Shown here: positions 18,913-64,000 of the stretch, one piece after another
How positions within the stretch are numbered: the stretch's first letter is position 1
Layout of the letters: every line of letters starts with the position of its first letter
Made by a program: the position numbers and the translations under genes
NCBI RefSeq assembly: GCF_022026395.1
Contig: NZ_CP041767.1
Location: 4,000,501 to 4,064,500, forward strand
Origin: Brevibacillus brevis
GTDB taxonomy: Bacteria > Bacillota > Bacilli > Brevibacillales > Brevibacillaceae
DNA: 64,000 bases
Reading direction: 5' to 3'
The notes under the pieces: model-generated
Databases searched by the model: none
What the model was told of the DNA's origin: nothing
The model's input: the letters and a program-made list of their open reading frames with translations, nothing else

Positions 18913-20079
18913 TTAGGCTCTCGTCACATTGAGGATCAGATCGTTCTCAAATCCACCGATTGAGATGTCAGAATAGCACTTGAGCATTTCTGTTAGCATC
19001 ACCTTTGCTTCCAGTCTGGATAGTGGTGCTCCCAAGCAGAAATGGCAGCCTTTTCCGAAGGTTAAGTGCTTGTTGCTATTAGGTCGATGGATATCGAATT
19101 GATCTCCCTGTGCAAAGGTATGTTCATCACGATTGGCAGAACCGAGCCATGCCATGACGATCTCGCCTTTTTTCATCAGACTTCCAAACATATCCGTGTC
19201 TTCTTGAACCTTGCGCATCAAAACCTGTGCTGGCGGACGGAAGCGCAATACTTCCTCGATCGCTTGATCTACCAGTTGCGGATTCTCCCTTAATTCACGA
19301 TAAACGCCTGGTCGATCCAGTAAAAAGCAGTAGAAAACACTGAACAAGAGCGTACTTGTCGTTACATTTCCGGCAAGCAGCAAACTGATTGCAATATCAA
19401 TAATCTCAGGGTCAGATAGCTTTTGGCCTTTATATTCTGTTTGCGTTAAGTCGGAAAGGAAATCTTTTGTCGGGTTCTCTCTTTTTTCTTGAATGATCGG
19501 AGAGAGATAAACAGCCATTTCCTTCATGATTTCTTCCTTTTTGAGGTTAATATCCTCATACGTTTCGCGTGTCCCGGAAGCGATGAGAACATCTGACCAT
19601 TGTTTGAACAGCATCCAATCGCTAGACGGTACACCGAGCAAATCGGCAATGACAATCACTGGCATCGGGGTTGCGAGATCACCTAAAATTCTGATGCTTT
19701 GCTTTTCTTTTACTTCCTCTAATAGATGACGTGAAATTTCTTGAATGCGCGGCTCCCACTCCTGAAGTGTTCGGGTTGAAAAGGCTTTTGTATAGAGAGC
19801 TCTCCTTTTTCCATGATCAGGCGGGTCCATCTCTGTGATGCCCTTTTCTTTCAATGCGAGGGAACCAGCAATTCGTTTGCCTGTATCGCTTGAAAAGAGG
19901 TGATAATCGGTCAGCACGCGCTCGACATCCGCATACAGAAATACGTTCCAAACCTGTTGCTTTTCATCATAATGTACCGGGCTATTTTTTCTCATTTCTG
20001 CATACCAGCCATAGGGTTCAAACTGTTGTTGCAGATTCTCCGCACCTGATATTTCATTGGGGAATACTACTTTATTCAT
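18913..20079 (-). CDS. Cytochrome P450 tailoring enzyme
   Basis: About 388-residue soluble bacterial P450, last gene of the polyketide locus, likely hydroxylating or epoxidising the product. Heme site FGKGCHFCLGAPLSRLEA with the ligand cysteine; ExxR motif in EVLRFRPP; the PDH segment MDPPDHGKRR. The I-helix reads LLLAGNVTTST: the usual acidic residue before the threonine is valine, which may alter proton delivery. The C-terminus is slightly short. The ATG at 20079 follows AAGGAG by eight bases; the GTG at 20088 overlaps that site. A P450 (PksS) ends the bacillaene cluster of Bacillus subtilis too, but orthology is not claimed. Needs separate ferredoxin partners. Confidence 0.92.
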   Translation of the reverse strand: MNKVVFPNEISGAENLQQQFEPYGWYAEMRKNSPVHYDEKQQVWNVFLYADVERVLTDYHLFSSDTGKRIAGSLALKEKGITEMDPPDHGKRRALYTKAFSTRTLQEWEPRIQEISRHLLEEVKEKQSIRILGDLATPMPVIVIADLLGVPSSDWMLFKQWSDVLIASGTRETYEDINLKKEEIMKEMAVYLSPIIQEKRENPTKDFLSDLTQTEYKGQKLSDPEIIDIAISLLLAGNVTTSTLLFSVFYCFLLDRPGVYRELRENPQLVDQAIEEVLRFRPPAQVLMRKVQEDTDMFGSLMKKGEIVMAWLGSANRDEHTFAQGDQFDIHRPNSNKHLTFGKGCHFCLGAPLSRLEAKVMLTEMLKCYSDISIGGFENDLILNVTRA

Positions 20080-20125
20080 TTCATTCACTCCTTATTTATA
20101 TGGATGGGTATGTGCTGCAAGCTGG

Positions 20126-21442
20126 CTACTGTCTGTATGATTTGATATCCTCTATCATGGTATCGAGGAGTTTTTCTATTAGCCCAACGTCTGTGTTCGA
20201 TTCAAAGAAGGAAATATTGAGGGTTATGCAATCTTGATAGGTACTGACTCCAAGCATCAGTCCTGGTGCGTAATAGGCTGGTGATACGATATATGCACCT
20301 GCGACTTTCACATCATCGAATGATAGCTGACTCATACTAATCATACCAAAATTTGATAGTATTGGTGTACTATTACCATCTGCTACAAGTTGTTTTCTTA
20401 CATCCTGTATGATCTTCAAGGTGTGATGGAACTCTAAATTTTCCACAAAGGCAAACGTGTTTACCGCATCGTGCAGAATGTCTTTATTATCACGTTGACT
20501 CTTCATGAATTCCGCCACTTCTTCTACCTTATCTGCAAATGTCCCTGTTGCTTGATTCATTGTGGCATGAACAACTCCAGACAAGTTGTAAATAGCGTCT
20601 ACCTTGCCCTTGGGTAAGAATTTTCTTACATTTACAGTCACCATGACTTTGACCTGCTCATCCGGAACATTTTCCATCTGTTGATATAAAGCTCGCATGT
20701 AGGCAGCCAGTACCACATCATTTACCGTGAACCCTTTTTGTTTAAATCCTTGCGCCAGCTCCAGCCACTCTTCGCCCGGTATTCTGCGAATGGCTTGTCT
20801 CCTTTTCGCTGGTTCTCCAGGCGTAAAAGGAAGTGTTGGCCCCTGCGGTTCGGGAGCTTGCGGCGTCCCGCCATTTGGGATACCCATTTCCTTGAACAAA
20901 CGGCTCTGATCCCTCCCCTCAAGGTTTGGCTTGGGAACGTAGCGCGGGTCTTTGGCTAGCTCACTATAAAGCGAAGCTAACAAGTGAACATATTCGATCA
21001 ACCCTGCACCATCACTGCATAGATGATTCAGTTTGATGCAAACGATATCTTTGGTCGAGGTCCGCAGAATGCGAATTTTGACCATCGCATCAGCATCGAT
21101 GTCTATTGGGCTCGACAGCCACTCCTGTATGGCTTTCTCTGCGGAATCGGACTCACCGAGAAGTTGCAAGGAACACCAACCGCTTGACGCCAAATCGCTG
21201 CGTCGCTCCCAATAAGGGCGGACTGAATCTTTTATAAAGCGGCAACCAATGATAGGTTCCGCAATGGTGCTTGCCTCCATCGCTTGAAGCAATCGCTGTT
21301 GATTCACCTGTCCGTCCATTTCCAACACCATTTGAAGCTGGCAATCGGAAAGATAGCTGACCATGTAATTAAACCTGTCACTTCCGTTTGCAGGCAGTCG
21401 GTTTGGGATTGCCATGTTCTGATTTACCTCACTGACATTCAT
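20126..21442 (-). CDS. Condensation-superfamily acyltransferase (PapA/WES-like)
   Basis: 438-residue stand-alone member of the CoA-dependent acyltransferase / NRPS condensation fold. The active-site motif is NHLCSDG (HHxxxDG with the first His replaced and the catalytic second His and the Asp-Gly kept). Later segments TVNDVVLAAYMRAL and ILSNFGMISMSQL are typical of the structural core, NFGM replacing the DFGWG latch. Such enzymes make esters or amides between a carrier- or CoA-bound acyl group and a hydroxyl or amine. It probably acylates the finished polyketide, or releases it. ATG after AAAGGGGTG. A terminator-like hairpin lies between it and asnB upstream, while the P450 gene follows after 46 bases. 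Confidence 0.8.
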   Translation of the reverse strand: MNVSEVNQNMAIPNRLPANGSDRFNYMVSYLSDCQLQMVLEMDGQVNQQRLLQAMEASTIAEPIIGCRFIKDSVRPYWERRSDLASSGWCSLQLLGESDSAEKAIQEWLSSPIDIDADAMVKIRILRTSTKDIVCIKLNHLCSDGAGLIEYVHLLASLYSELAKDPRYVPKPNLEGRDQSRLFKEMGIPNGGTPQAPEPQGPTLPFTPGEPAKRRQAIRRIPGEEWLELAQGFKQKGFTVNDVVLAAYMRALYQQMENVPDEQVKVMVTVNVRKFLPKGKVDAIYNLSGVVHATMNQATGTFADKVEEVAEFMKSQRDNKDILHDAVNTFAFVENLEFHHTLKIIQDVRKQLVADGNSTPILSNFGMISMSQLSFDDVKVAGAYIVSPAYYAPGLMLGVSTYQDCITLNISFFESNTDVGLIEKLLDTMIEDIKSYRQ

Positions 21443-21477
21443 TTACGAAACACCCCTTTACCTACAATTTTTGAAAG

Positions 21478-21509: not shown

Positions 21510-21535
21510 CTTTTTATCAGCAAATCCCAGAGATT

Positions 21536-23353
21536 CTATCGAATTGATACCTTGTATTCCTCTAACCACATGTTTATCTGGACGAGATATTCGATCAGCT
21601 TCGTTGATTGAGCGAGATTCATAGGTGCTTTTCCATCCAGTACAAATTGGATTACAGACTTATTAATTAAAGGTAATAGAGGCGAATTAGGATTGGCTAG
21701 AATTTGTTTCATATGGTCCAGAATCGCATGGTAATACTCCGGATGATAGGTCATCGGATATGCGCTTTTGTTGCGATACAATACTTCCTGCGGCAAATAT
21801 CCTTTGTACGCTCTGCGAAGCAAGCCTTTTTCGATTTGATCAATATTTTTTACTTTCCATGGGACATTCCACAAATATTCAACCAGACGGTAATCACAAT
21901 AGGGAACACGTACTTCAAACCCCGTATACATGCTCATTCGATCCTTGCGATCCAATAGCAACGGAAGAAAACGCGTGATAAAGAGGTACGACATTTTGCG
22001 CTGTTGAGCTTCCAAAGCTGTCTCCCCTTCCAAAGGGTGTACCTCTGCAATCCCTTCTTCGTACCGCCTGCGAAGATATTCTTGTGGGCGAATCTTTTCG
22101 ATGGCTTCTTCATTTAAAAATGAGCTCCACCCGTCATGCTCCATCCAAGGGAATTTCCCTGAGTTCAAGAATTTCTCCTTCTGAAACCAAGGGTACCCGT
22201 TAAATACTTCGTCTGCCGATTCACCTGATAGCGAGACGGTCGCTTTTTTCTTCATTTCCCGGCAGAACAAATAGAGCGAGGTATCCGTCTCCCCTAATCC
22301 TGGGAGATCACGCGCTCTCAACGGCATATGAAAATGAGTAATCAGATCTTGGGCGTTGAAGGTAATCTCTTGATGCTTGGTTTGTACATGCTCTGAGACT
22401 GATTTTGCCCATGGCGCGTCCAAACTAATGTGAAGCAAACCTTCTTCAAAATGCTGATCATTGTCAACAAAATCTACCGAATAGGTTTGCAACGTTTTCC
22501 CTTTTTTACGGAGCTCCTCAGCGGCTAAAGCAACCAAGCCACTAGAGTCCAAGCCCCCAGACAGCATACTAACCAATGGCAGGTCAGAGATTAACTGACG
22601 TTTTACCGTGTCTTGTAACAGACCGCGTATCGTTTCTGTCGTTGTCTCCATATCATCGGTATGCACCTTGCTCGCCAGTTTCCAGTATGGCCTTGTTCTG
22701 ATTTGATCCTTCGTGACTGTTACACAATGTCCAGCTCGCACCTCCCTTACATTGCGGAAAATGCCAAATCCAGGCGTTCTCGCCGGACCGAGTCCGATAA
22801 TATCCGCTAACCCATCCGCTTCTACCTCAGGCTTTACTTTTGGATGGGCGAGCAAGGCTTTCAGTTCAGAACCGAACAAGAACGAGCTCCCTCGTTGACA
22901 ATAAAATAATGGTTTTACACCCAAGTGATCACGTGCTAAAAACAAGCGATGATTTTTTTCGTCCCAAATGGCGAATGCAAAAATTCCATTGAGATGACGG
23001 ACACATTCCTCTCTCCATTCCAAAAAAGCGTGCAGTAATACTTCCGTGTCAGAATTGGTTTGAAAGGAGTGCCCAAGCAGCTCTAACTGGCGGCGCAGGT
23101 CCAAGTAATTATAGATTTCGCCATTAAACGATAAGACACACGTCTGATCTCCTTCTCGGTAGATCATGGGTTGCTTGCCGCCTTCCGGGTCGATCACGAT
23201 CAGGCGCCGATGCGCAATCGCTGCCCGAGGAGACAACCAATACCCCTCTTCATCTGGCCCACGATGTTGGATCGCTTGAGCCATTTTGTGCAAAATAGCA
23301 TGCTGGGATGTCAAATCGTCATCCCAATCAAGCCATCCCACAATTCCACACAT
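21536..23353 (-). CDS. asnB: AsnB-type glutamine-dependent amidotransferase in the polyketide locus
   Basis: About 605 residues, complete class-II amidotransferase of the asparagine synthetase B family. The glutaminase half starts with the nucleophile in MCGIVGWLD and has AHRRLIVID, SFNGEIYNY and SDTEVLLHA. The synthetase half has the ATP-pyrophosphatase motif SMLSGGLDSSGL and SGESADEVFNGYPWF. All catalytic residues are intact. The ATG at 23353 puts the cysteine at position 2 and follows GAGGAGAGG. Within trans-AT clusters such enzymes convert an acyl carboxylate to a primary amide (glutarimide polyketides are the known case), so a product amidation is likely, though housekeeping asparagine synthesis cannot be excluded. 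It starts 26 bases after the NRPS stop. Confidence 0.85.
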   Translation of the reverse strand: MCGIVGWLDWDDDLTSQHAILHKMAQAIQHRGPDEEGYWLSPRAAIAHRRLIVIDPEGGKQPMIYREGDQTCVLSFNGEIYNYLDLRRQLELLGHSFQTNSDTEVLLHAFLEWREECVRHLNGIFAFAIWDEKNHRLFLARDHLGVKPLFYCQRGSSFLFGSELKALLAHPKVKPEVEADGLADIIGLGPARTPGFGIFRNVREVRAGHCVTVTKDQIRTRPYWKLASKVHTDDMETTTETIRGLLQDTVKRQLISDLPLVSMLSGGLDSSGLVALAAEELRKKGKTLQTYSVDFVDNDQHFEEGLLHISLDAPWAKSVSEHVQTKHQEITFNAQDLITHFHMPLRARDLPGLGETDTSLYLFCREMKKKATVSLSGESADEVFNGYPWFQKEKFLNSGKFPWMEHDGWSSFLNEEAIEKIRPQEYLRRRYEEGIAEVHPLEGETALEAQQRKMSYLFITRFLPLLLDRKDRMSMYTGFEVRVPYCDYRLVEYLWNVPWKVKNIDQIEKGLLRRAYKGYLPQEVLYRNKSAYPMTYHPEYYHAILDHMKQILANPNSPLLPLINKSVIQFVLDGKAPMNLAQSTKLIEYLVQINMWLEEYKVSIR

Positions 23354-23379
23354 AGTAACCTCTCCTCTTGTTCGCAAAT

Positions 23380-26300
23380 TTAGTGTTGGGGATGATGCGT
23401 TATCGCATTGACTAACTCATTTACCTTTTGCTCTGGGTTTGCTACCAATCCTTCTAAAAGAGCATTCAAGTGCTGCAGCATCCTGCTAATTTCCTTATCG
23501 TTGAAGAAACGTCGATAGTAGTTGATATGCAGAACCAAAACTTGTTCATAGAAAAGGATTTCCACTCGTAATGGATGCTCCGTCTGCGCAACCGAATCAT
23601 AGATGGTAGCGCCGAGGACATCATTAAATCCTCTAAAGACAGAAGAGAAATCAGGAAGCTGTTCGCTTACCAGATAGCTGTCAAATAAAAGCCGATCTCG
23701 TGGAATATCGCACCACTCGTATATTTTTTTCAGCGGAGTGTACTCGTATTGACTCGTCTCTACCACTTTCGACTGCATGTTTTGTAGCCAAGACAAGAAC
23801 CTCATGTTTTGCTCAACGCTCACGCGAATGGGCAAAATATTGAAGAAAAGTCCGACAGAATGTTCGACCTCCATCATCGCTATGCTGCGACCGGAGAAGA
23901 TCGTACCAAATACAACGTCTTCCTTGCCGCTGTAATGATGGAGCAGCAATGCCCAAGCCCCCTGTACCAATGTATATGGCGTCAGATGATACTTCTTGGA
24001 CAAGGATAACAGCGCCGAGGAGACTTCTGGCGATACAATGAACCTTTCTTGAGAATAGGGAGGCTCCTCAGCAGACATATTCTTCTTACTCGCTTGTGCC
24101 CATTCAAGCGTGGAGCTGGTCATTCCTTTCAGATTCTTCTTCCAAAACAGCTCCGCATCCGTTAAGTCCTGCTGTTTTTGTAGCGCAACATAATCCCGAT
24201 ACGGATATACAGGCACAATATCAATCGCCTTCCCTTGGGAAAACGCTTGATAATATTCGAATAGTCTTTTAACGATCAACGTATAGCTCCAACCATCCTG
24301 CAACATCAGATTGAAGACATAAATAAAGTAGTAGACATCCTCTCCTACTTGAATAAGAGCAAGATGCGCATGTGGTGCTTTGCCCATCTCAAATCCTTTT
24401 TGTCTTAGCTTTTGAATATAGGATTGCAATTTTTCGTGTTGATTTTCTTCCGGAATGTCCCGCCAATCTTCCTGCTTGATGTGGATATCCACTTTCTCAT
24501 GAACGATCTGCATCGGTTCATCCAGCTCTTCCCAGATGAAGGAGGTTCGCAAGGCAGGGAATTGTTGGATGAGATGCTGCCATGCATGCTCAAAAGCAGC
24601 TACATGGAAAGGGCCGCCCTCTATGCGAAAAGCATGATGAACCACATTCAAACCGGGTTCTGGATGATGCTTGTATCGATAGAGCATATTTTCTTGCATG
24701 ATCGTCAGCGGATAAACATCCTCCATGTATGGGTTGTCTGCTTTTATCCGATCCAACTGATGCTTATCAAGAGTGGGTAACTCTACTGCTGTTGCCGTTC
24801 GCTTCGCACTTTGAGTGGAACCCCCACCTACAACCTCTGCCAGTTCGGCTATGGTTTGGAATTGGAAAATCTGCTGTGGAGTCATTTCCAAACCGAGTTG
24901 TTTTGCTCTCGCAACCACTCGAATGGTATGAATGGAGTCCCCGCCCAATCCGAAGAAGTTATTATGTATGCCAACCTTATCCAAGCCCAATATTTCAGCC
25001 CAGACATCGGCAAGAATTTTTTCCGTCTCCGTCGTTGGCGGTTCAAAATCCCCTTCCATTTCTGGCACTTCCATAAGCGGCGCAGGAAGCGCTTTGCGGT
25101 CCAATTTACCATTCATGTTCACGGGCATTTCCTTGATAAACTCAAAGATAGACGGAACCATGTAATCTGGCAGCTTATCCCGTAAATAACTGCGCAGCTC
25201 TGGAATGAACTGGCGAGCAACTCTGTCTGTCAAAGGATCGTTCGCATACGTTTCGATCGGTTGGTAGTTTCTCGCTGGACGATGCCACGCGGTGACCACT
25301 GTGTTACGCTGTCTTTTTTCTAGTAAATGCTCAGGTCGGAGCACAGCTTCATAGCTGCCATCCCCGCAATCGCCCATCCAAGCGATATCTACACGGTATC
25401 GAAGCTCAGCACCCAACCTCCAAAGCTCCTCCGGGTCTATTCCAGTGCTAGGATGGTTCTGATCTGTTCTCAGCTCTTCCACCGTTTTGAGAGCATCTGG
25501 GTCAGCAAGTAATGACTGGTATCGATTCGCCCTGTCCAACCGCGAATTCGGGATTTTCGTAAGTCCTAAGATTTGCGGTTTATATTTGGTCATGATTTGA
25601 CGAAGTCCATCAATATTTCGGAATCCCTCCTCATGCCAATCCAGCCATGCAAAGTCTTCGATTGTCTGCACTTTTTTGCCGAGATGAAGAATCACATCAT
25701 AGCGATAGCGAGTTAATTCATTATGATGACTTCCGCGCTTCAGCTTGATTTCTACATGGCTGATTTGATGCAACTGATCTTGAAGCGCATAGAAAAAGGC
25801 AGGATCGATAACCAGCTCCTGCTCTTGTCTCATTCGCTTTTGTACGCGGCGTTTCAATTGATCGGTGGTCAATGTCGCCGGTGACTTTTCCATCTCAACC
25901 TCAGTGAGGAAGGTTTGCAGTAAAGAAAGATTACGAACATCACCGACAAAGATTGCTCCTTTGTCATTCATGGCATGTATGGCCTTTTTCAGCACATCCA
26001 ACAGGTAGTTCGCATCCGGGAAATACTGCACGACAGAGTTGAGCACGATCACATCGAACTTCTGTCCCTTTAGTCCACTAAAATCATCCGCATAGCTCTT
26101 ACGCAGTGTGACATTGGATAAATCCTCTCTTTGGTTGATCAGATTCGCAGTAATATAATCCAAAGCCATCGAAGAAAAATCCGTACCCCAATACTGTTCA
26201 CAATGAGGCGCAATTCGAGATAGCAACAGCCCTGTACCGCACCCGATCTCGAGTACCTTTTTCGGTTGCAAGGCAAGGATACGATCCACCGTCGAATGGA

Positions 26301-29391: not shown

Positions 29392-29446
29392 CGGATTGCT
29401 CCTTCCTACCTGTTGATTCTGCTGCCGTACTTACGAGATGAATTCA

Positions 29447-36793: not shown

Positions 36794-36811
36794 ACTAGGC
36801 ACTCCTTCGGC

Positions 36812-48172: not shown

Positions 48173-48174
48173 GT

Positions 48175-54100: not shown

Positions 54101-57100
54101 AAATCGAGAGGCTGATCTTTACTTGCCTCATCCAAATTTGTAAGACCGGCCACTTTTGGCGCTATCACTTGGTCCCATTCTTCTGTCGTTTTCTTGAGGA
54201 TGAAGTTGTCTCGAACGACACCCGCGCTATGGATGATGCCGTGAAGACCTCCGAATTCCTGTTGAATACTTTGGATGAGCTGGATTACTTCCTGCTTGTC
54301 CGTCACATCAACTTGACGGTAGACAACCCTTGCACCTGATTTTTCCCATTCATGAAGCATCGCTTGTTTATCTTCACGCAGAGGAGAACGTCCTGTGAGA
54401 ATTAAGGTTGCCCGTTTCGCTTGATTCGCGATTTCCCTTGCAAAAATCACCCCTAAACCGCCTGCTCCACCCGTAATCAAATAGGTTCCTTGATCTTTCC
54501 ACGGAATAGTGACCTCATCATGCAATGGCTTGGTTTCACACCAGCCCAGTACATAACGTTTCCCCTCTTGATAGCGAATTCGGTCATCCATAGGATGGCA
54601 CGCATTCTCTTGCAGCTTGCTTGCGATTTCTGCCGCACGTTCACCTGGGTTTATTTCAATGAATTGGCCGATTAGATTAGGATTCTCCTGCTGCGCTGTT
54701 TTCAGCAAGCCAGAAAGTCCGCTTAGGTATGATTGTTCCGCTTTGTCGGGAACGACGACCTGCACTAACACTTTGCCAAGTATCTTTTGTTGGAAGAGGC
54801 TTTGGATTTCCAAAAATACTTGGGAAGCATAGGCCTCGAACCTGTCGGCAATGTCCTCCTGTTGGGATTGCAAAGGAATCAAGCGCACTTCGTTCATCTG
54901 TGCTGAAATACTTGCAAGCGACGCTGCAAAACCTTCCACCATCATCACGATATGCTGTGCATAGGCAGGAGTCTCCGTTTCCTGAAGAACTGCTTGTTCC
55001 TTCCAGCAAGGATGCACCATCAACATTCCTTGGCCCTCTGTAGCTTCGAAGTCTGCCGCTTTACCATCCAACTTGCGAGACGAAAAGCGCTTCATTCTGA
55101 CAAGAACATTTCCCTGCTCGTCACATAAGTCAATATCCAGCTTCTGTACATGATCAGAAGCGTTGCTGCCATCGCTGTAGCGAATATACGCCCACATCTG
55201 TCGCGTGCATGGACTGAAGATTTCCAGCTCATCCAGCGCAAAAGGCAAGATTGGCTTGAGCGTATCGAAATTGTTAGCGAGACTCTTGTCATCAGCCCCT
55301 ATAAATAAGCCAATCGCCGCCTGCAAAGCCGAATCCATCATACTGGGGTGCAGCACAAACTGTTCTTCTGTCCCCAAAACAGCGAAAGGTAAAGACAGCT
55401 TTGCCAACACCCGATCCGTGCCTTTGTGCACTTCCACAATTCCTTGCAGCGCTGGACCATACTGCATTCCCATTGCTTTATAAAATTCATAGCATTGGCT
55501 GCCACTCAAAATGCTATGGCTACACGCGTCTTGTAGCATAGCGAGATCAAGCGCGGGCGTCTCGGCAACCGTATGGAATACGGCACTTCCCTGACTGTGC
55601 ACAATCTCTTTTGCTTCATTTCCTGTATGCTCACTATAGATGCGATAGCCAATCTCTCCACTGTCTTCCAGTTGAAGACCAATGTGAACATCGACAGGCT
55701 GATCATCGACAGCAATTGGCTTGGCCCACACCATATTTTTGAGCGTCAAGCCATTCTGTCCCGCTTTTAGGGCTCCCGCTGACTGATCGATTGCCGCGCG
55801 TGCCATTTCGAGATAAGCAACACCCGGTAAGAGCTGCTGTCCATTCACTACATGATCTGCCAAGAAAAATTCCTGTCCACGGAAGGTAGAACTATACCGC
55901 TGTTCCAACAATTCAGACGTGTTTTTCTGGATCAATGGGTGAAGGAAGAGCGTCCCTTCTGATGTGGCTGCCACTTCGCGCGCAAATTGCGTATCCATCT
56001 GTGGAATCCAATAACGTTCTCTTGCAAACGGATACGTAGGCAAGCTAATGCGACGAGGTTTCTTCTCACCGTAGAGCTTATGCCAATCAACCACGCCTCC
56101 ACTGACCCACAGATCAAGCAGCTTGGCGTATTTTCTTTTGCTTATCCAGGCATCGATTGCCTTTTGCAAATCTTCATCCGCTTCAAACACGGCGATTGTC
56201 TTTTTGTTACCTTTTACCTGTCCTCGGAATACATCTGTGATGCTTTCCTGTCCATCTACAAATTGCGTCAGCTTTTCCTGAAGCTCTTGAATGGAGCCGG
56301 CCATCACAGCCAGGCGTTCTTCCATGGCTTCTCGCCCAATTTGAAGCGTGTAAGCAATATCTGCTAAGTCCAGGTCAGAAATGGACTGATCCTTGATCGC
56401 AGCTAACAATCGCTGTGCCTGTTCGTGGAGCTGGCTTTCGTTCTTTGCTGACAGGAGAATGATCGCTGGATTTGCGTGACTTACATGGATCGCTGGACGT
56501 TTCTCATGGTCTGGAATGTATTCTTCCAAAACGATATGAGCATTCGAGCCACCCGCCCCAAAGCTGCTCACACCGGAGCGTCTTGGAAACTCCTGACCGT
56601 CAATGACAGGACGTTTCCATTCCGCCAGCTCTTGCTGGACGACAAACGGAGTTGCGCTGAAATCAATATTCGGGTTTAGCACCTCCGCATGCAAGGATGG
56701 TGCTAGTTGTCCGTATTTGAGCTGCAGCAGGATCTTCGTGATCCCGGCAATTCCCGCTGCACTCTCACAATGCCCGATATTGGATTTCGCTGATCCGATG
56801 GAGCAAAACTGCTTGTCAGTTGTGTACGCCTGGAAGGCTTTGGTCAAACCTGCGATCTCTATTGGATCTCCTAAAGAAGTACCTGTACCGTGCGCTTCCA
56901 AATAACTAATCGTCCGTGGATCAATTCCTGCCTCCTTCAAGGCACGCCCAATTACACTCGCTTGTGCATTCGGATTAGGTACGGTATAGCCATTTGTTTT
57001 GCCGCCATGGTTAATGGCGCTTCCTTTTATCACACCGTAAATTTGATCTCCGTCGGCAATTGCTTTCGCCAAAGGCTTAAGCAGTACCGCTCCGACACCT

Positions 57101-60100
57101 TCTCCAGGCACATAGCCGTCGCCGCCAAGTCCAAAGCTTTCGCATCGTCCCTTGCTGGAAGCAAATTTTCCCTGTCCGAGCATCAAATATTTATTCGGGT
57201 GAATGGAAACATTGACACCACCCGCAATTGCAGCCTCGCATTCACCGCGCAGCAAGCTTTGGCAGGCAAAATGGATGCCCGTTAGCGAGGAGGAACACAT
57301 GGTATCAACAGCTACGCTAGGACCATGGAAATTAAAGAAATAAGAAACACGGTTCGCTACAGATGAGAAGCTTCCACCAAGGGCCATTGGTCTGCCCATC
57401 AAGGTTTCTTGTGCACCATACAGTTGATACTCTTCATACATGATGCCCACATAAACACCGACATTACCGCCAAGTCCGAACCCTTTAGACGATCCGAGAG
57501 ATTCGCGGGTATAGCCTGCATCCTCTAAGGTTTCATACACACACTCCAGGAATAAACGTTCCTGCGGGTCCATGATTTCTGCTTCCAGAGGCGAAATGTT
57601 GAAGAACAGCGGATCGAATTGATCAACACCATCGATGAATCCGCCCCATTTGCTATAGGTTTTCCCCCGTTTGTTCTTATCCTCATCAAAATACAAACTG
57701 TGGTTCCAGCGGTCTTTGGGGATCTCCGTAATGCAATCCTTGCCATCGCGCAAATTGTTCCAAAACTCTTGCGTATTCCGCGCTTTCGGATAACGTCCAG
57801 AAACCCCAATGATCGCAACATCCAAAGCTCCTTTGGCTGGTTGGGTTTCCTTCTGTGTCGAAATGAACCGCGAGCCTTTGCGACTGCTTCCGCGCTGGCT
57901 GTTCCTTTGCCTTTTCGACGTGTTCTCTTCTTTTGTCACGGATGCTGTTTCTCTGGTAACAACTGTTTCCTGCTGTTCTGTAAGGCCCAAGATTTCAATG
58001 AATTTGTCTCGATAGGAGTCCAAGAAATAACCAATTATTTCGTGAATCGTTTGATACTCAAAAAATAACGTTTTCGGCAGCGAGCCAAAGCTTTTCTCTA
58101 ATTGGTTGGTTAATTTCATGGATAGAATCGAATCAATTCCGTATGTCTCCATCGAGGCATCTTCTTCGATTCGATTCACAGGCAGTTGCAGCACCTCGGC
58201 AAATTCCTTTTTCACAAAATGAGTCGCTTTCTCGCGGAGCACATTTTGTTCTACAGTGGCGGTCGCTTGTTTTTCTTTTTTCTCTTCCCTGGTTGGTGTG
58301 ATCGATGCCACTGGCTGCATCTGTTTTACCAGCATCTCTTCAAATTCTTCAAGTAAATAGGACGCAAGCTGCTGTAGCGTCGGACACTCCACGAATACAT
58401 TAGGAATCAGCCCAATGTGATATTGCTGATTAAGCTTGTTGGCGAATTCAGTCAGTAGAACCTGATTAAATCCGAGTTCAGACAGCTCCACTCTGACATC
58501 AATATCCGTGGTAGGAACCTGTAGCAGATCCGACACGGTTTGCATCAAAGCAAATTCCACTTTTTGCAACAGATTGCTCGTATCCGCTGTTTCCGAAGCT
58601 TCCAATCGAACAGGAGCATGCTTCGATTGAGAACGGTTGACTGGTGTTTGCAAAACCAGTGTTTGCTTGAGCTTCGCCAGATCGCCTTCCATCACCATGA
58701 CCTGAGCTTTTCCAGAGGCTAAGCCTTGGTACATAGCTCCAATACCCGTCGAAGTCTGCATAGCGACTACTCCCCTGCTATGCTCCAGCATGTCACCGGC
58801 CTCTGCGCCAGCCTGCATTCCGCCCTCTTTCCACAATGGCCAGTTCATGGACAACGTCTGTCCGTGACGTTGCTGTAACGCAACCAAACCATTACGATAG
58901 TGGGCAAATCCGTCCATAAAGGCGTTGGCGCACGCATAGTCAGCTTGACCGATATTCCCCAAGCTGCCAGCCACCGAGGAAAACAGCACCAGGAAATCCA
59001 GTTCTACATCTTTGCTGGCTTCATCCAGATTGATGAGACCCGTAACCTTCGGATGGAGAACCGTTTGGACCTCCTCCCTGTTTTTTCTGAGGATATAGCT
59101 GTCACGAAGCACGCCAGCACTATGAATAATGCCATGTAGTCGACCATAGTCCTGTTGAATCGTGCGGATCAACTCTGCCATTTCCTGTTTCTGCGTCACA
59201 TCAACTTGGCGGTATTCAACACTTGCTCCCGATTCTTTCAATTCCTGAAGTTTGCCTTGCTTCTCTTGATCCAATGGGGAACGTCCTGTCAGAATCAAAT
59301 TCGCCTGTTGAACCTTCTGTACAATTTCGTTGGCAAAAAGATAACCCAGTCCGCCTGCCCCGCCAGTGATGAGATAAACCCCACCGTGTTTCCACGGAAT
59401 GCTCGTCTCTTGTGGAGCATCGAGTTCTACCCACTCAGCTACATATCGCTTTCCAGATTGATATCGAATCTGAACATCCAATGGGCAGCGTACATTCTCC
59501 TTTATTTTTTCAGCGATCCCGAATTCGTCGTCGCCCGATTCTATCTCGATTACCTGTCCAATCAGGCTGGGATTCTCCAAGTTTGCCGTTTTCAGCAAAC
59601 CAGAGAAAGCGGTGAAAGACGGTAGCTCCGCTTGCAAGGGAACGACAATCTGAACCAATACCTTGCCGCGTACTTTTTGCTTGAAAATCCCTTGAATTTC
59701 CTCAACTACCTGCGTCGTATAATCAATGAAACGCTCGGCAACGCCTTTTTGCGTGGATCGCAAAGGAATGCAATGAACGCCATTCAAGCTGGCCTGGAGA
59801 TTGTTCCAAGAATCGTGCTCCGGTTCTACCATCATCACGACTCGCTGTGTATAGTCAGGGGCTTCGGCCTTGCTCGCAACCGCTAGTTCCTTCCACTCTG
59901 GATGAACCAGCAGTGCTCCGAGCTTGCCTTTGGAATCCATCGTCGCTACTTCGCCTTCCAGCACTCGTGCCGAGAAGCCTTGCATACGTACGCAAACCGT
60001 TCCTTGATCGTCACACAAATCAATATCCACTTTCTGTACCTTGTCTCCCGAGCTATTGGCGCTAGCCTGTCGAATCCATACCCACATCCGTGAGGAAGTC

Positions 60101-63100
60101 TGGCTAAAAACGCTCAGCTTCTCCAGTGCAAAAGGCAGGATTGGCTTCAGATTCGCTGTATCGCCTGTGCCAAGCAATAATCCGATAGAGGATTGTAAGG
60201 CCGAATCCAGCATGCTCGGATGCAAGACGAATTCTCCTTGCGTCTCGGCAACTTTGGAAGGCATGGCTAGCTTGGCCAATACTTGCCCCTCTCCCACGTA
60301 CACATGCTCAATTCCTTGCTGAGCTGGCCCATAGACAAGTCCCATTGTTTGAAAGGCGTCATAACACTCACTTGCATGAAGCGTGCGATAACTGCATTGG
60401 GCTTTGATCGCATCGAGATTATGCGTGGGTGCAGCAGTGATCCCTGCAAACACCACACCCCCTTGACTGTGTACCACCGATTCGGCCTGTTCGTCCTGCG
60501 GTTCGCTGTATATTTCATAGCGAAGGTCGCCGTTATCCTCAGGATAGATGCCGATGTGTACCTCAACAGGCGTATCTTCCACCACAATCGGTTGCGCCCA
60601 TACTACATTTTTCAGCTCCATCACGTATTGCTCGTCTTCCAACGCTCCTGCTGCTAGATCCGCAGCAGCTCGAGCCATCTCAAGATAAGCAACCCCAGGC
60701 AGGATTCTCTTTCCTTTTACAACATGATCCGATAAAAAGAATTCCTGACCATCAAAAGTAGAGCTGAATCTTTGCTCACGGAGATCTGAAGTATTTTGAT
60801 GCAGCAAAGGATGCAGGGAAGCAGTCAGACCAGGCGCACCTTTTATGTGAGTGGACGGCTGTGTCTTCGGTTTGGGCAGCCAGTAATTCTCTCTGGCAAA
60901 AGGATAGGCAGGCAAGCTGATCCGACGAGGCTTGATTTCGTCATAGAGCTTATTCCAGTCCATATTCAAGCCCTTCACCCAGAAATCGAGAAGCTTGGAG
61001 AATTTTTTGCGTTGCATCCATTTCTCAATTGCTTCTTGTAATTCCTCATCGCCTGCGAAGATGTCTGTTGTTTCTCTGCTGCGCTTTACCTGACCACGAT
61101 AGAGGTCGGCAATGCTGTCATCACCTGCAAGAAAGCTTTGCAACTTCTCTACCATCTCTGAAAGCGAACTCGCCATCAGGGCTAGGCGTTCTTCCATCGC
61201 CTCGCGTCCCACTTGGAGCGTATACGCAATATCAGCAAGGTCCACATCTGTAAATGCTTGCTCCTCAATCGACGCTAACAGTCTCTGCACTTGTTCAACG
61301 AGACGCTCCTTATTCTTCGCCGACAGGACGATGATCGCCGGATTTTGCGGACTGACCGTGATCGTCGGGCGTTCCTTGACCGCAGGAATATATTCCTCAA
61401 TCACAACATGTGCATTGGACCCACCTGCACCAAAAGAAGAAATCCCGGCAATTCGCGGGAATTCTCTCTTTTCGCCGTTCACTTCAATAAGCGGCCGCTT
61501 CCATTCAGCCAAGTCCTGCTGAACGACAAAAGGTGTTTTCGAAAACGGAATATTCGGATTCAACTCTTGCGCATGCAGGCTTGGAACCAGCTGTTGATGC
61601 TTCATTTGCAGCAAAATTTTTGCCACTCCTGCGATTCCAGCCGCCGCTTCCAAGTGACCAATATTGGATTTAACGGAGCCAATCGCACAAAATCCTGTAT
61701 CCTGCGTATCCTTGCGGAAGGCCTGGATGAGACCCGTAATTTCAATCGGATCACCCAGCTCCGTGCCTGTTCCGTGCGCTTCGATATAGCTAACGGTTTT
61801 GGCATGAACACCTGCCTTATCCAGCGCCTGGCGAATCAGCTCTCCTTGAGCAGTTGGATTCGGTACGGTATAGCCATTGGTTTTTCCGCCGTGATTCACG
61901 CTGGTACCACGAATCAATCCGTAGATATGGTCGCCATCCGCAATTGCTTTTGACAGTGGTTTGAGCAGTACTGTACCTACTCCTTCTCCCGGTACAAAAC
62001 CGTTTCCGCCTTGCCCAAAGCTTTTGCATTGTCCATCTACGGAAAGCATATGCAGCGCTGACAAAAAGACATAGCTGGAAGGATGCAGATACAGGTTGAC
62101 TCCGCCGGCAATCGCCAGTTCACAATCCCCGTTATACAGATGCTCGCATGCTTCATGAATCGCCGTAAGCGAAGCGGAGCACATCGTATCAATCGGCATA
62201 CTCGGACCTTGGAGGTTGAGGAAATAGGAAACACGATTCGTCAGTGAGCTAAACGAGGTGTGCGGGTAAATCAATTCACCCTGCTTCCATAAATCAGGTC
62301 CATACAAGCTGAACCCTGTTTTGGTAATCCCTCCAAACACTCCAACCCGTCGATTGTACTTTTCCGCAAGCTGTTGTCTCGTATAGCCAGCATCCTCCAG
62401 CACTTCCCAGCAAGACTCCATAAATAACCGTTCTTGCGGATCGAAATGCATCGCTTCCCACGGAGACATATTGAAAAAGAGCGGGTCGAATTCAGCGAAT
62501 CCGTCTACAAAGCCGCCCCATTTGCCGTAGCTTTTTCCTTCTGCCACAGCTTTGTCTGGATCAGGCTCGAAAAAGTCATCCAGTGACCAGCGCTCTTCCG
62601 GAATTTCTGTAATGCAATCCTTTCCAGACTTCAGATTCTCCCAATACTCGTTCAGTGATCGCGCTTTTGGATAACGTCCGCTCATGCCGATAATGGCAAT
62701 CGGCTCCCGCGCTATCTGCTTTCCTGATTGCACGGCTGTACTGCGAATCGGTTCATGGCTGGCTGTATCACGTTCGTTACGCACCAGTGGTGTTGAAGTT
62801 CCGCGATTGGCCGCACCCTGACGATCAAGCCCCGTCCACTTCATGCATTCCTGCCTATGATCAGCGACGAGATAATCTGCAAGGGTGTCAAGAGTCTGAT
62901 ATTCATACAAAATGGTCTTGGACAATTCGCTAAAAACATCCCCCAGCTTTTTATTCAGCTGGATCACCATAATCGAATCGATTCCGTATGTCTCGAACGG
63001 TTCATCGACAGCGATTTTACCTGCTCCCAGTCTGGTCTCTTGTCCGAACATCACCTTTAGCTGATAGAGCGTTTTCTCTTTTAACACGCCTGCATCGACT

Positions 63101-63999
63101 GACAGCTTCGCATCGTGCACCGGTGTGGAATCGAGCTGTGACACGACAGAAGTACCAAGCAACTGATCCTTGAGTGTTGGCAGATTGCCTTCGATAACCA
63201 GCATCTGCACAGTGCCGGAAGCCACCCCTTGATACAGCGCCTGTATGCCGCTTGCAGTCGGCATCGCGATCATGCCCCTACCCTCCATGATCTTCTCTGT
63301 CGCTTCATCAACACGCATACCGCCCTCTTTCCACAGCGGCCAGTTGATGCAGAGTGTTTGACCTTGTCGTTCGCCTGCTTTCACCAAACCATGACGATAC
63401 TTGGCGTATTGATCCATAAAGGCATTGGCAGCAGCGTAATCAGCTTGCCCCGCATTACCAAAGCATCCCACGCCAGAGGAGAAGAGAATAAAGAAGTCAA
63501 GTGCCATATCCTTGCTTGCCTCATCGAGATGCATCAGTCCAGTAACTTTTGGCGCCAGCACTTGTTCCAGTTCATCCGCTGTTTTTCTCATGATAAAACT
63601 GTCGCGAATGACTCCCGCACTATGAATAATGCCTGTGAGACTGCCAAACTCTTGCTTGATGGCTTGGAATAAGTCTTCTACCGCCTGCTTTTGTGTGATA
63701 TCAGCCCGACGATATTGAATATTGGCTCCCAGTGTCTTCCATTCATTGCATAAGGCTGTCTTTTCTTCATCCAAAGAAGAACGACCCGTGATAATTACTG
63801 TCGCTCCCTTCGTTTGCTGGGTGATTTCCTTGGCAAAAATCAAGCCTAATCCGCCCGCACCGCCCGTAATCAGATAAACCCCATCATCTTTCCAGACATG
63901 CTCCGCTTGCCCAGAAGCTTTCATTTCTGTCCAGCCGCTCACCCATCGCTTGCCATCCTGATAACGAATGTGCTTACTTTTCTCATCGTTGCTGTTTTG
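48175..63999 (-). CDS. Trans-AT PKS, N-terminus cut by window edge: KR-ACP-KS-DH-KR-ACP*-ACP-KS-DH-KR-ACP-KS-KR-ACP-KS0
   Basis: At least 5270 residues in window; the frame is open to the right edge, where IRYQDGKRW matches internal repeats. No AT domain. Positions from 63942: KR (27-230, QADYAAANAF); ACP (YGIDSIMV, ~322); KS (414-850, DTMCSAS); DH (1042-1330, HVVKGKRILP, DSALQ); KR (~1524-1730); ACP-like with GFNQ, serine lost (~1824); ACP (YGIDSILS, ~1938); KS (2037-2480); DH (2668-2950); KR (~3157-3360); ACP (YGIDSIMV, ~3452); KS (3554-3997); KR (~4399-4620, TGGTRGLG); ACP (YGIDSVLL, ~4706); KS (4794-5200, DTACSSA but EANGSGS for EAHGTGT, so non-elongating). The last KS0 works with the DH-ACP of the next protein, a dehydrating bimodule. 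Confidence 0.94.
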   Translation of the reverse strand, partial: QNSNDEKSKHIRYQDGKRWVSGWTEMKASGQAEHVWKDDGVYLITGGAGGLGLIFAKEITQQTKGATVIITGRSSLDEEKTALCNEWKTLGANIQYRRADITQKQAVEDLFQAIKQEFGSLTGIIHSAGVIRDSFIMRKTADELEQVLAPKVTGLMHLDEASKDMALDFFILFSSGVGCFGNAGQADYAAANAFMDQYAKYRHGLVKAGERQGQTLCINWPLWKEGGMRVDEATEKIMEGRGMIAMPTASGIQALYQGVASGTVQMLVIEGNLPTLKDQLLGTSVVSQLDSTPVHDAKLSVDAGVLKEKTLYQLKVMFGQETRLGAGKIAVDEPFETYGIDSIMVIQLNKKLGDVFSELSKTILYEYQTLDTLADYLVADHRQECMKWTGLDRQGAANRGTSTPLVRNERDTASHEPIRSTAVQSGKQIAREPIAIIGMSGRYPKARSLNEYWENLKSGKDCITEIPEERWSLDDFFEPDPDKAVAEGKSYGKWGGFVDGFAEFDPLFFNMSPWEAMHFDPQERLFMESCWEVLEDAGYTRQQLAEKYNRRVGVFGGITKTGFSLYGPDLWKQGELIYPHTSFSSLTNRVSYFLNLQGPSMPIDTMCSASLTAIHEACEHLYNGDCELAIAGGVNLYLHPSSYVFLSALHMLSVDGQCKSFGQGGNGFVPGEGVGTVLLKPLSKAIADGDHIYGLIRGTSVNHGGKTNGYTVPNPTAQGELIRQALDKAGVHAKTVSYIEAHGTGTELGDPIEITGLIQAFRKDTQDTGFCAIGSVKSNIGHLEAAAGIAGVAKILLQMKHQQLVPSLHAQELNPNIPFSKTPFVVQQDLAEWKRPLIEVNGEKREFPRIAGISSFGAGGSNAHVVIEEYIPAVKERPTITVSPQNPAIIVLSAKNKERLVEQVQRLLASIEEQAFTDVDLADIAYTLQVGREAMEERLALMASSLSEMVEKLQSFLAGDDSIADLYRGQVKRSRETTDIFAGDEELQEAIEKWMQRKKFSKLLDFWVKGLNMDWNKLYDEIKPRRISLPAYPFARENYWLPKPKTQPSTHIKGAPGLTASLHPLLHQNTSDLREQRFSSTFDGQEFFLSDHVVKGKRILPGVAYLEMARAAADLAAGALEDEQYVMELKNVVWAQPIVVEDTPVEVHIGIYPEDNGDLRYEIYSEPQDEQAESVVHSQGGVVFAGITAAPTHNLDAIKAQCSYRTLHASECYDAFQTMGLVYGPAQQGIEHVYVGEGQVLAKLAMPSKVAETQGEFVLHPSMLDSALQSSIGLLLGTGDTANLKPILPFALEKLSVFSQTSSRMWVWIRQASANSSGDKVQKVDIDLCDDQGTVCVRMQGFSARVLEGEVATMDSKGKLGALLVHPEWKELAVASKAEAPDYTQRVVMMVEPEHDSWNNLQASLNGVHCIPLRSTQKGVAERFIDYTTQVVEEIQGIFKQKVRGKVLVQIVVPLQAELPSFTAFSGLLKTANLENPSLIGQVIEIESGDDEFGIAEKIKENVRCPLDVQIRYQSGKRYVAEWVELDAPQETSIPWKHGGVYLITGGAGGLGYLFANEIVQKVQQANLILTGRSPLDQEKQGKLQELKESGASVEYRQVDVTQKQEMAELIRTIQQDYGRLHGIIHSAGVLRDSYILRKNREEVQTVLHPKVTGLINLDEASKDVELDFLVLFSSVAGSLGNIGQADYACANAFMDGFAHYRNGLVALQQRHGQTLSMNWPLWKEGGMQAGAEAGDMLEHSRGVVAMQTSTGIGAMYQGLASGKAQVMVMEGDLAKLKQTLVLQTPVNRSQSKHAPVRLEASETADTSNLLQKVEFALMQTVSDLLQVPTTDIDVRVELSELGFNQVLLTEFANKLNQQYHIGLIPNVFVECPTLQQLASYLLEEFEEMLVKQMQPVASITPTREEKKEKQATATVEQNVLREKATHFVKKEFAEVLQLPVNRIEEDASMETYGIDSILSMKLTNQLEKSFGSLPKTLFFEYQTIHEIIGYFLDSYRDKFIEILGLTEQQETVVTRETASVTKEENTSKRQRNSQRGSSRKGSRFISTQKETQPAKGALDVAIIGVSGRYPKARNTQEFWNNLRDGKDCITEIPKDRWNHSLYFDEDKNKRGKTYSKWGGFIDGVDQFDPLFFNISPLEAEIMDPQERLFLECVYETLEDAGYTRESLGSSKGFGLGGNVGVYVGIMYEEYQLYGAQETLMGRPMALGGSFSSVANRVSYFFNFHGPSVAVDTMCSSSLTGIHFACQSLLRGECEAAIAGGVNVSIHPNKYLMLGQGKFASSKGRCESFGLGGDGYVPGEGVGAVLLKPLAKAIADGDQIYGVIKGSAINHGGKTNGYTVPNPNAQASVIGRALKEAGIDPRTISYLEAHGTGTSLGDPIEIAGLTKAFQAYTTDKQFCSIGSAKSNIGHCESAAGIAGITKILLQLKYGQLAPSLHAEVLNPNIDFSATPFVVQQELAEWKRPVIDGQEFPRRSGVSSFGAGGSNAHIVLEEYIPDHEKRPAIHVSHANPAIILLSAKNESQLHEQAQRLLAAIKDQSISDLDLADIAYTLQIGREAMEERLAVMAGSIQELQEKLTQFVDGQESITDVFRGQVKGNKKTIAVFEADEDLQKAIDAWISKRKYAKLLDLWVSGGVVDWHKLYGEKKPRRISLPTYPFARERYWIPQMDTQFAREVAATSEGTLFLHPLIQKNTSELLEQRYSSTFRGQEFFLADHVVNGQQLLPGVAYLEMARAAIDQSAGALKAGQNGLTLKNMVWAKPIAVDDQPVDVHIGLQLEDSGEIGYRIYSEHTGNEAKEIVHSQGSAVFHTVAETPALDLAMLQDACSHSILSGSQCYEFYKAMGMQYGPALQGIVEVHKGTDRVLAKLSLPFAVLGTEEQFVLHPSMMDSALQAAIGLFIGADDKSLANNFDTLKPILPFALDELEIFSPCTRQMWAYIRYSDGSNASDHVQKLDIDLCDEQGNVLVRMKRFSSRKLDGKAADFEATEGQGMLMVHPCWKEQAVLQETETPAYAQHIVMMVEGFAASLASISAQMNEVRLIPLQSQQEDIADRFEAYASQVFLEIQSLFQQKILGKVLVQVVVPDKAEQSYLSGLSGLLKTAQQENPNLIGQFIEINPGERAAEIASKLQENACHPMDDRIRYQEGKRYVLGWCETKPLHDEVTIPWKDQGTYLITGGAGGLGVIFAREIANQAKRATLILTGRSPLREDKQAMLHEWEKSGARVVYRQVDVTDKQEVIQLIQSIQQEFGGLHGIIHSAGVVRDNFILKKTTEEWDQVIAPKVAGLTNLDEASKDQPLDFFVLFSSIAGSAGNSGQADYACANAFMDGYAKDRNERVQAKQRQGQTVSINWPLWKEGGMQVDEAVEEMVKQRLGMIALHTATGIRAFYEAVASRKDQVMVMEGDLQRLHAAVVGRQKTTEQEVKASTVIQPASHHLPKEKAIYYFKKLVSSVIKLPIDRIEADALLEKYGIDSIMVMQLTNELEKTFGSLSKTLFFEYQTIEEIAKYFLAAHGDQMMSILGMDEKEAPTASPVKRSSVAQTMVAATAKPIIHNRRSRGNVLKETTSETKPANDALDIAIIGVSGRYPKARNMSEFWRNLRDGKDCVTEIPEERWDHSLFFDADKKKQGKTYSKWGGFLDGVDQFDPLFFNITPREAEIMDPQERLFLECVYETLEDAGYTRESLGATPGMGLGGNVGVYVGVMYEEYQLYGAQETMLGRPMALAGSPASIANRVSYFCNFHGPSMAVDTMCSSSLTTIHLACQSLQQGECEAAIAGGVNISIHPNKYLMLGQGKFASSKGRCESFGIGGDGYVPGEGVGAVLLKPLAKAIADGDQIYGVIKGTAVNHGGKTNGYNVPSPNAQARVIGRAFQKAGIDPRTISYLEAHGTGTSLGDPIEITGLTKAFQVYTNDKQFCAIGSAKSNIGHCESAAGIAGVTKVLLQLKHGQLAPSLHAEVLNPNIDFSVTPFVVQQELAEWKRPVIDGREVPRRAGVSSFGAGGSNAHVVIEEYIPKMQEQATIMASPQNPALILLSAKNEDQLQQRVQRLLEYIAEQGLSDADLAEMAYTLQVGREPMEERLAVIAGSMMELEEKLKQFIGRQKDIEDLYHGQVKRHKDTLAIFAADDDMPQMIDSWMNKGKYSKLLDVWVKGLNIDWSSLYGERKPRRISLPTYPFSREAYWVPGGHTSFTGAASRSTYEQIAVQPDMRILKKQWKACPAMPTKAAHRTIGIFTTDETKHLAIQLSNHFAKCEILELNELESRFHQDETEWKNYDGIIDLIGCGRQHPDSLAWIPWLQQLIENGHKEGLTLLGVTKGLESFQNDSVNLTGASRVGVYRMLQSEYKHLQSRHVDLEPLADGEELAQQIAAEFLIDAQETEVCYRAGERYRAYLQEERVADSQEPAFVFPENHVLLITGGTRGLGYLCAKHFVERHGVKKLVLTGRESLPPREQWGAYETQSTSAAKKIRAVQALEKQDVQVEVLSVSLTDEEAWQQHLRELKQTMGPIGGVIHCAGFSDDQNPAFIRKTTDGIQQVLQPKVAGLHALYELCKDEPLQFFVLFSSVSAIIPSLAAGQSDYALANAYMDFFAAAHADFCPIVSIQWPSWKETGIGAVTTKAYQQTGLVHITDEQGLRLLDHILLKKIGPVVFPAAINEELWEPQQLMQHKKQEAPVVNLSPHRPPAGKPTQSSVGLEKTAQKRLIELFAKELKIDPARLEIDKEFPDYGIDSVLLAQVMNEISKWLGKDLDPTILYEYPTIETLAEWLTSNHGDSISDELTLTSPEMSDHPKSQPIRRETKKSQMVSSQAPPYNQANPSDIAVVGLSCRFPGARNVDEYWKLLAEGRSAIGAVPKERWGYENSYHAGLLDNITAFDPAYFLIAKEDAKAMDPQALLVLEESLHLWHQAGYTSNDIKGRAVGVYIGARSNHRPSEERLHQTQNPIMTVGQNYLATNISQYFDLRGPSMVIDTACSSALVGMNMAIHSLRSGEIEAAIVGGVNVLNGDEAHRMFHQRGILSEEPVFHIFDRRAGGLVLGEGVGMVLLKTVEQALADGDEIHAVIKGVAVNNDGRTAGPATPNLQAQKEVMQSALAKAGVNPEQISYIEANGSGSEVTDLLELKAIQSVYRSSRMAACGLGSIKPNIGHPLCAEGIASLIKVVLMLKHQQLVPFLSGQEPMTHFHMESTPFYFQRQLSEWNDSPRIAAINCFADGGTNANVVLQSWEEAVSRPNKRHSIAPPTLNRFDVYREEAGRPTKTLTYVSQKPNHTTSIWKRQIVEG
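51950..53280 (-). repeat. KS-coding repeat, copy B (pair with 56480-57830)
   Basis: The two KS-coding blocks in the same gene are near-identical in protein and roughly 85% alike in the DNA compared by eye. They share a perfect 29-base run at 52583-52611 and 57131-57159. Both KS begin with the same GVSGRYPKARN and carry the insertion GLGGNVGVYVG. Confidence 0.75.
56480..57830 (-). repeat. KS-coding repeat, copy A
   Basis: Counterpart of 51950-53280, about 4.55 kb upstream in the gene. Suggests duplication of a KS-DH-KR-ACP unit, or gene conversion between modules. Confidence 0.75.
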
Positions 64000-64000
64000 T

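Follow-up and report, generated by a model that had tools for sequence, protein, structure and literature searches.

A 77-kb trans-AT PKS-NRPS cluster of Brevibacillus brevis with a proposed malonyl methyl ester start and N-methylserine end, a trans-ER having Asn for the catalytic His, and Ser-less carrier-like domains

The window analyzed here, a stretch of 64,000 nucleotides of Brevibacillus brevis DNA (bases 4000501-4064500 of a single 6.16-Mb contig; coordinates past 64000 are continued rightward), was found to hold the downstream half of a 77-kb trans-AT PKS-NRPS cluster of 13 genes. All genes lie on the minus strand, from a P450 gene (18913) to a PPTase gene (95666), and the cluster reads from right to left. 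From the genes, the domain order, the missing active-site residues and their conservation, which can be seen directly in the sequence, we infer the structure, release and tailoring of a product whose chain would start from a malonyl methyl ester, undergo eleven elongations, take up an amino acid inside a polyene, be O-methylated, gain a beta-keto unit and end in N-methylserine (probability about 0.6). For a cluster often listed but still unsolved, this is a specific structural hypothesis whose individual steps can be tested in laboratory strains of Brevibacillus. We regard three features as new: the trans-ER with Asn for His, a clade of Ser-less ACP-like domains common to other clusters, and a terminal C domain without HHxxxDG.

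To the right of the window lie the PPTase, an AT-AT-ER protein (1100 residues), genes for an alpha/beta hydrolase and for a methyltransferase, and those of PKS1 (2737 aa) and PKS2 (3984 aa). PKS3 (7166 aa) is cut by the window end, its first quarter lying beyond on the same contig. The left edge of the cluster was placed between 18359 and 18913, because orthologs of the left-most gene, a cytochrome P450 (18913..20088, minus strand; PF00067, E 6.9e-42), occur only in NRPS-bearing genomes, whereas the neighboring LysR gene is not so restricted, being 96% identical also in two genomes without the cluster. Of 26 genus genomes, seven carry the P450 ortholog (95-98% identity; next best 50%), and these are exactly the NRPS-bearing ones. 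The NRPS ortholog is 92-96% identical in 6 of the 25 other Brevibacillus genomes searched (92-95% for the species B. formosus, B. porteri and B. fortis). All 13 genes stand in the same order in the five other Brevibacillus genomes fetched; the full comparison covered these five of the six other clusters, G019 being omitted because its cluster is split over contigs. A stand-alone condensation-superfamily acyltransferase with the motif NHLCSDG (20126..21442, minus strand) gave a partial PF00668 match, a weak WS/DGAT match and no match at 0.01 in a PDB sequence search; its ortholog (87-92%) was seen only in the seven cluster genomes among the 25 genus genomes listed. The AsnB-type glutamine amidotransferase (21536..23377, minus strand; TIGR01536, 512.9 bits), whose true start is probably an internal ATG giving MCGIVGW, has 96-98% orthologs only in the seven cluster genomes, and a paralog of 48-53% is present in all 26. 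The amidotransferase, acyltransferase and P450 genes named in a preliminary description of this DNA were thus all recovered. Divergent to the cluster is a NusG/LoaP-like antiterminator gene (96013-96564), kept in all five other fetched clusters; an Rfam search for a leader element in the PPTase-LoaP region gave no hit at E values up to 1. Just past the LoaP-like gene stands an adjacent pair of class 3 lipase genes (L002:14304-16015), and an AgrB-like gene is found at L002:17022-17567. Within the window but outside the cluster, positions 5529-7664 encode a 711-aa protein whose sole Pfam match is MutS domain V.

The product class had been called unrecognized. This holds insofar as no named product of the cluster was found in the literature, in which the relevant papers were available in part or as listing entries; however, the cluster family is on record as 'aurantinin', and Brf335 has been assayed (accessible part of PMC8302727). 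Table 1 of PMC10753013 gives 'aurantinin' as region 1.1 in B. formosus NRRL NRS863 and as region 9.1 in B. porteri B-41110, entries which, read as contig.region, fit the contigs bearing the NRPS ortholog; its accessible text states that the product was undetected by mass spectrometry. A 'NRPS-PKS Trans-AT, Aurantinin 25%' cluster appears in Table 4 of PMC11705897 for another Brevibacillus, and the part of PMC12654256 at hand too lists an 'aurantinin' region in these species. Macrobrevin has an entry of its own in the survey tables. Further PKS KS domains lie elsewhere in the genome (G000:C1:3327045-3337760 and 3433176-3433919), perhaps belonging to the zwittermicin-like cluster that the surveys list and to one other.

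Domain searches of positions 18913-63999 gave eight KS domains, four in PKS3 (KS7-KS10; 48175-64000), two in PKS4 (36812-48202) and two in PKS5 (29447-36802), and six KR domains, four, two and none in the same proteins. The Pfam lists agree with these earlier reported counts, and an AT domain in the modules, which the preliminary description had named as evidence against its own reading, appears nowhere in the lists for PKS1-PKS5. The RhiE-like/CurL-like post-KS linkers of the PKS proteins also fit the trans-AT type. PKS1 reads ACP-ACP / KS1-cMT-ACP / KS2-DH-KR, and PKS2 reads cMT-ACP / KS3-DH-ACP / KS4-DH-KR-dACP-ACP / KS5(0)-ACP, where dACP denotes an ACP-like domain without the phosphopantetheine Ser. 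PKS3 starts with C-A-PCP, followed by KS6-KR-ACP; its C-terminal 5274 of 7166 residues (48175..64000, minus strand, the gene running on to 69675) show the order KR6-ACP6 / KS7-DH-KR-Ser-less ACP-ACP / KS8-DH-KR-ACP / KS9-KR-ACP / KS10(0). PKS4 (36812..48202, minus strand) consists of DH10-ACP10 / KS11[inserted Ser-less ACP]-DH11-KR11-MT11(degenerate)-ACP11 / KS12-DH12-KR12-Ser-less ACP, and PKS5 (29447..36802, minus strand) of cMT12-ACP12b / KS13(0)-MT13-ACP-ACP / KS14-ACP14. The 14 KS minus three KS0 give eleven elongations, and the whole cluster has two A and three C domains. In module 3 the DH is not accompanied by a KR, and a neighboring KR would have to act in its place.

Several domains lack residues expected of an active enzyme. 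KS10 (48310..49557, minus strand) is missing His1 (NGSGS) and forms the second half of a dehydrating bimodule, KS9-KR / KS10(0)-DH-ACP, split between PKS3 and PKS4. KS13 (33662..35197, minus strand), read as non-elongating, is missing the first active-site His (SAYGS) in 6/6 species, and the three KS0 changes are identical in 6/6 genomes. In DH12 (38666..39511, minus strand) the catalytic Asp is replaced by Glu (HPSLLES) in 6/6 genomes, with a dN/dS of 0.37; MT11 (41978..42286, minus strand) is eroded, with a 27-residue deletion in five of the six species and a dN/dS of 0.33. Domain order and motifs support the dehydrating bimodule, C-methyl, beta-keto and N-methylserine traits predicted earlier. 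Of the predicted O-methyl trait, the MT itself was found by domain search in the KS0-MT-ACP-ACP module (32756..33172, minus strand), while its reading as an O-methyltransferase would follow from the module type.

A KS tree was built from 103 KS of ten cluster segments in nine genomes, each KS being labeled by its upstream module. The nearest foreign KS had the same label for 60 of the 89 non-own KS, as compared with 16.5 on average and 29 at most over 500 shuffles; the labels therefore carry signal. Among our own KS, this was the case for 9 of 14, the nearest foreign KS having another label for KS2, KS4, KS10, KS13 and KS14; KS5 and KS13 are distant from all others, and KS14 has a single near neighbor. 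KS6 falls among amino-acyl KS, and KS10 groups with the KS0 of dehydrating bimodules, namely those after KR-ACP (support 1.00 for each), KS11 with KS after DH-ACP, and KS3 and KS12 with KS after DH-KR-MT. KS8 and KS9 are sisters (0.99) among KS after DH-KR, the deep nodes of the olefin-KS group being weak, and KS1 is sister to KS1 of G184 (1.00).

On these grounds we propose the following pathway. The AT of the AT-AT-ER protein would load malonate, which the stand-alone MT, acting on the tandem loading ACPs, would convert to the malonyl-ACP methyl ester. Extension by KS1-KS4 would give an alpha-methyl beta-keto unit, an alpha-methyl olefin and two olefins, after which KS5(0) would pass the chain to C-A-PCP for addition of one amino acid (code DVSNMAIIYK). 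A beta-hydroxyl is then predicted from KS6, and more polyene from KS7-KS9 together with KS10(0) and KS11; KS12, whose DH is probably inactive, should leave an alpha-methyl beta-hydroxyl. O-methylation by KS13(0)-MT would precede the beta-keto unit of KS14 and the N-methylserine added by the NRPS. Release may fall to the unusual C domain at the end of the NRPS or to a different closing reaction, the simplest product end being a 3-acyl-5-hydroxymethyl-N-methyl tetramate. The BioH-like hydrolase would free the starter carboxyl, which AsnB may amidate, and the acyltransferase and P450 would decorate the product.

Whether the polyene is fully unsaturated depends on the trans-ER. The AT-AT-ER protein (91513-94815 in continued coordinates, L002:9013-12315, minus strand), which supplies the separate AT of the cluster 27 kb beyond the right end of the window, has two AT domains (FabD model, 493.1 bits) and a PfaD-type ER, the sole one found in the genome. 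The motif of AT-2 is GHSLG and that of the first AT is GSSLG; G(A/S/V)SL is given as an acyl hydrolase pattern in the accessible part of PMC11775670. The ER passes TIGR02814 (678.7 bits against a cut-off of 449.25) and has GGNT where GGHT/I is the rule, that is, Asn for the catalytic His, in 7/7 orthologs; this motif is taken from PMC10921412 and stands as ADSGGH in PMC13311796, as far as these are accessible. By this residue the trans-ER of the cluster looks inactive, and the chain should consequently stay unsaturated.

A serious alternative, which we rate somewhat below even odds, is that the trans-ER is competent despite the Asn and that the product contains at least one saturated bond. MlnA, of solved structure (4z38), also has Asn at the ER His position, and macrolactin has a saturated stretch and is not fully unsaturated; Asn may therefore not mean a dead ER. 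The ER has a dN/dS of 0.067 over six genomes, as low as those of the two ATs to which it is fused (0.088-0.097), and it can be aligned over its full length with DfnA (4cw5), an ER of solved structure. Against competence stand the position of our KS8 and KS9 among KS after DH-KR and the H198V mutant of the gladiolin trans-ER GbnE, in which reduction was abolished and module iteration was still stopped in vitro (accessible part of PMC10921412). Besides an inactive ER and an unsaturated chain, which we prefer, we put forward tentatively, as a doubtful but testable idea, that the trans-ER is a natural non-catalytic clamp against module iteration, kept by selection, the His having been lost several times in Bacilli trans-AT clusters. 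In 30 ER loci, one per matching genome from 398 Bacilli genomes searched (7 further matches came without loci), the His was present in 17 and replaced in 13, by Asn in 7 (the cluster of interest), Pro in 3 and Tyr in 3. If the clamp idea were true, a whole class of trans-ERs would be chain-length regulators, not reductases, and the cluster would offer a natural test of whether trans-ER association, rather than reduction, controls iteration, for which an engineered mutant has served so far (PMC10921412, in the part at hand).

Ser-less carriers make up 4 of the 23 carriers of the cluster (GFDQ, GFNQ, GVDL and GFDP), the Ser being absent in all six genomes compared. They are an ACP-like domain of PKS2 (residues 2982-3045) and, on the minus strand, domain 7a (GFNQ; 58354..58548), a domain between KS11 and its post-KS linker (GVDL; 45167..45364) and domain 12a (GFDP; 36875..37069). 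Over the ten segments, 14 of 153 carriers are Ser-less, a set kept by a hand-written motif list after the rows of a regular expression were judged by eye to be mostly mis-hits on Ser-bearing carriers. They occur in six segments (our own, G184, G122, G002, G006 and G140), and none was seen in segments G182, G132, G345 and G122b. All 14 fall into one 33-tip clade (midpoint-rooted tree, support 0.97), whose other 19 tips are Ser-bearing ACPs, 18 of them preceded by a KR. Three of the 14 are insertions between a KS and its linker (our own, G002 and G140), each in a KS after a DH-ACP half-module, and these three make up a separate subclade (0.96). In the AlphaFold model of our own insert, the block at model residues 41-120 has a pLDDT of 71-87 (whole-model mean 66), and the 50 Foldseek matches listed are mostly ACPs with a TMt of about 0.8, the best E being 0.009 and none reaching 0.001.

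The dN/dS of the Ser-less carriers (0.19-0.38) is above most of the values of the 19 Ser-bearing ones (0.022-0.204) and similar to those of the relic domains DH12 and MT11, and the helix after the lost Ser hardly varies. A reading of these carriers as pure drift was rejected. A role as ER docking sites was rejected for now, since KS8, which follows a Ser-less carrier, and KS9, which does not, are sisters (0.99) among the DH-KR-following KS; the KS of G122 and G002 mix likewise with respect to such carriers, at weaker nodes. The likeliest explanation, though not proven, is that the Ser-less carriers are relics of module recombination with a possible spacer role. The clade may be a marker of trans-AT module recombination, and counting its Ser-less domains as working ACPs would misread clusters. 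Literature searches on Ser-less carriers and on ER recruitment yielded no account of these carriers, most matches being judged by their listing.

At the chain end, the NRPS described earlier as C-A-NMT-PCP-C was found at 23380..29391 (minus strand) by domain search, and the code of its A domain (DVWHISLIDK; 26428..27822, minus strand) points to Ser, DVWHLSLIDK being what we take to be a Ser code. The tyrocidine A domains of this genome served to check the column ruler for the A codes; the first NRPS module, the C-A-PCP of PKS3, gave DVSNMAIIYK, a code that led to no amino acid assignment. An N-methyltransferase core lies between A and PCP (25849..26304, minus strand). The terminal C-like domain (23413..24717, minus strand) has FNLMLQDG for HHxxxDG, conserved in 6/6, and the Pfam lists show no thioesterase or reductase domain in the cluster proteins; this makes release the least secure part of the model. 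Closure of a tetramate by a C-like domain that has no HHxxxDG is, to our knowledge, without precedent. An oxazolomycin-like end, in which the N-methylserine and beta-keto chain would close to a pyrrolidinone or spiro lactone and not to a plain tetramate, seems unlikely to us. The present cluster may resemble that of oxazolomycin, which has a formyl-glycine start and methoxymalonyl-ACP genes, in its internal amino acid within the polyene, an O-methyl near the terminus and a terminal NRPS of the C-A(Ser)-NMT-PCP-C type. However, no hydroxymalonyl/methoxymalonyl-ACP genes were recognized among the 13 cluster genes, PKS1 begins with ACP-ACP and has no formylglycine loading, and oxazolomycin takes up three glycines instead of serine (accessible part of PMC4979870).

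At the chain start, which looks like a malonyl methyl ester, the methyltransferase, a putative Art28-type enzyme, matched UbiE/BioC-like family models. Its identity to the MT of G012, a genome matching B. formosus, is 97%, and B. formosus NRRL NRS-863 and DSM 9885 are presumably the same type strain. In the accessible part of PMC8302727, Art28 methylates malonyl-ACP, as do five homologs in vitro, including Brf335 of B. formosus DSM 9885, whose trans-AT cluster most probably belongs to the same family as ours. The Brf335 assay and the 97% identity make the malonyl methyl ester start the best-supported chemical step. The adjoining hydrolase, a candidate Art9-type esterase, is an alpha/beta hydrolase with GHSMG and a weak BioH match, and could instead be a type II thioesterase. 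In the G184 cluster the gene order is the same, an MT of 67% standing next to a hydrolase of 43%, whereas no hydrolase homolog was seen near the MTs of G345 (64%) and G192 (61%) in the stretches read, so the pair is not universal. Art28-like MTs occur in 18 of 398 genomes (19 matches), six matches of 32-34% lying outside the loci read; a second match in G192 and those in G241 and G024 (35-39%) were rejected as relatives, their stretches having no multimodular PKS. The rightward search for AT, HMGS and starter genes suggested earlier thus yielded the AT-AT-ER protein, MT and hydrolase, but no HMGS (PF08540) match genome-wide, while the control search was positive in 4/14 genomes.

Glutarimide-type priming, in which AsnB would turn malonyl-ACP into a malonamyl starter by amidation, the methyl ester being a mere intermediate, is about as improbable, in our view, as the oxazolomycin-like end. 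AsnB is indeed a cluster gene, and the accessible part of PMC8302727 discusses on-line transamidation for both isomigrastatin and cycloheximide. Nevertheless, the malonyl-ACP O-MT homolog and BioH-like hydrolase stand at the PKS1 end and AsnB at the other end of the operon, and the best solved relative of AsnB is a hydroxyamidotransferase (7ylz). That the cluster is the aurantinin pathway of Brevibacillus, an identity unlikely from gene content, is very improbable, since in spite of the antiSMASH label (PMC10753013, Table 1), the 25% similarity (PMC11705897, Table 4), the Art28-like MT, the antiterminator gene beside the cluster and the use of KS0, aurantinin needs beta-branching (art7 and art18-21, four being necessary by deletion) and is made of joined polyketide chains, in the part of PMC8302727 at hand, against the absence of an HMGS match and the two A domains here.

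In comparison with known systems, two loci were rejected as relatives: the SAR324 locus (L017), in which C-A-MT-ACP-C stands inside longer NRPS proteins and not as the last module, and the Nostoc KVJ20 locus (L018), with no MT in the proteins read. Segment G182, which we take from its gene sizes to be the bacillaene cluster, shares KS0 dehydrating bimodules, C-A-PCP inside a PKS and a PksE-like AT-ER; unlike ours, its ER has GGHT, and no Ser-less carrier was seen. The art cluster of aurantinin, as described in the accessible part of PMC8302727, is likewise a trans-AT PKS with an antiterminator gene and KS0 modules, and its malonyl-ACP O-MT start and BioH-like esterase have putative counterparts here, whereas the present cluster has no HMGS match, two NRPS modules, a predicted N-methylserine end, AsnB, a P450 and an acyltransferase. 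The first AT, a candidate acyl hydrolase like PksD (PMC11775670, as far as accessible) by its GSSLG, which fits the G(A/S/V)SL pattern, is here fused to an AT and an ER. Gladiolin GbnE (PMC10921412, in the part at hand) was altered at the same His position of a FabK/PfaD-type ER, at which Asn occurs naturally here, in seven genomes.
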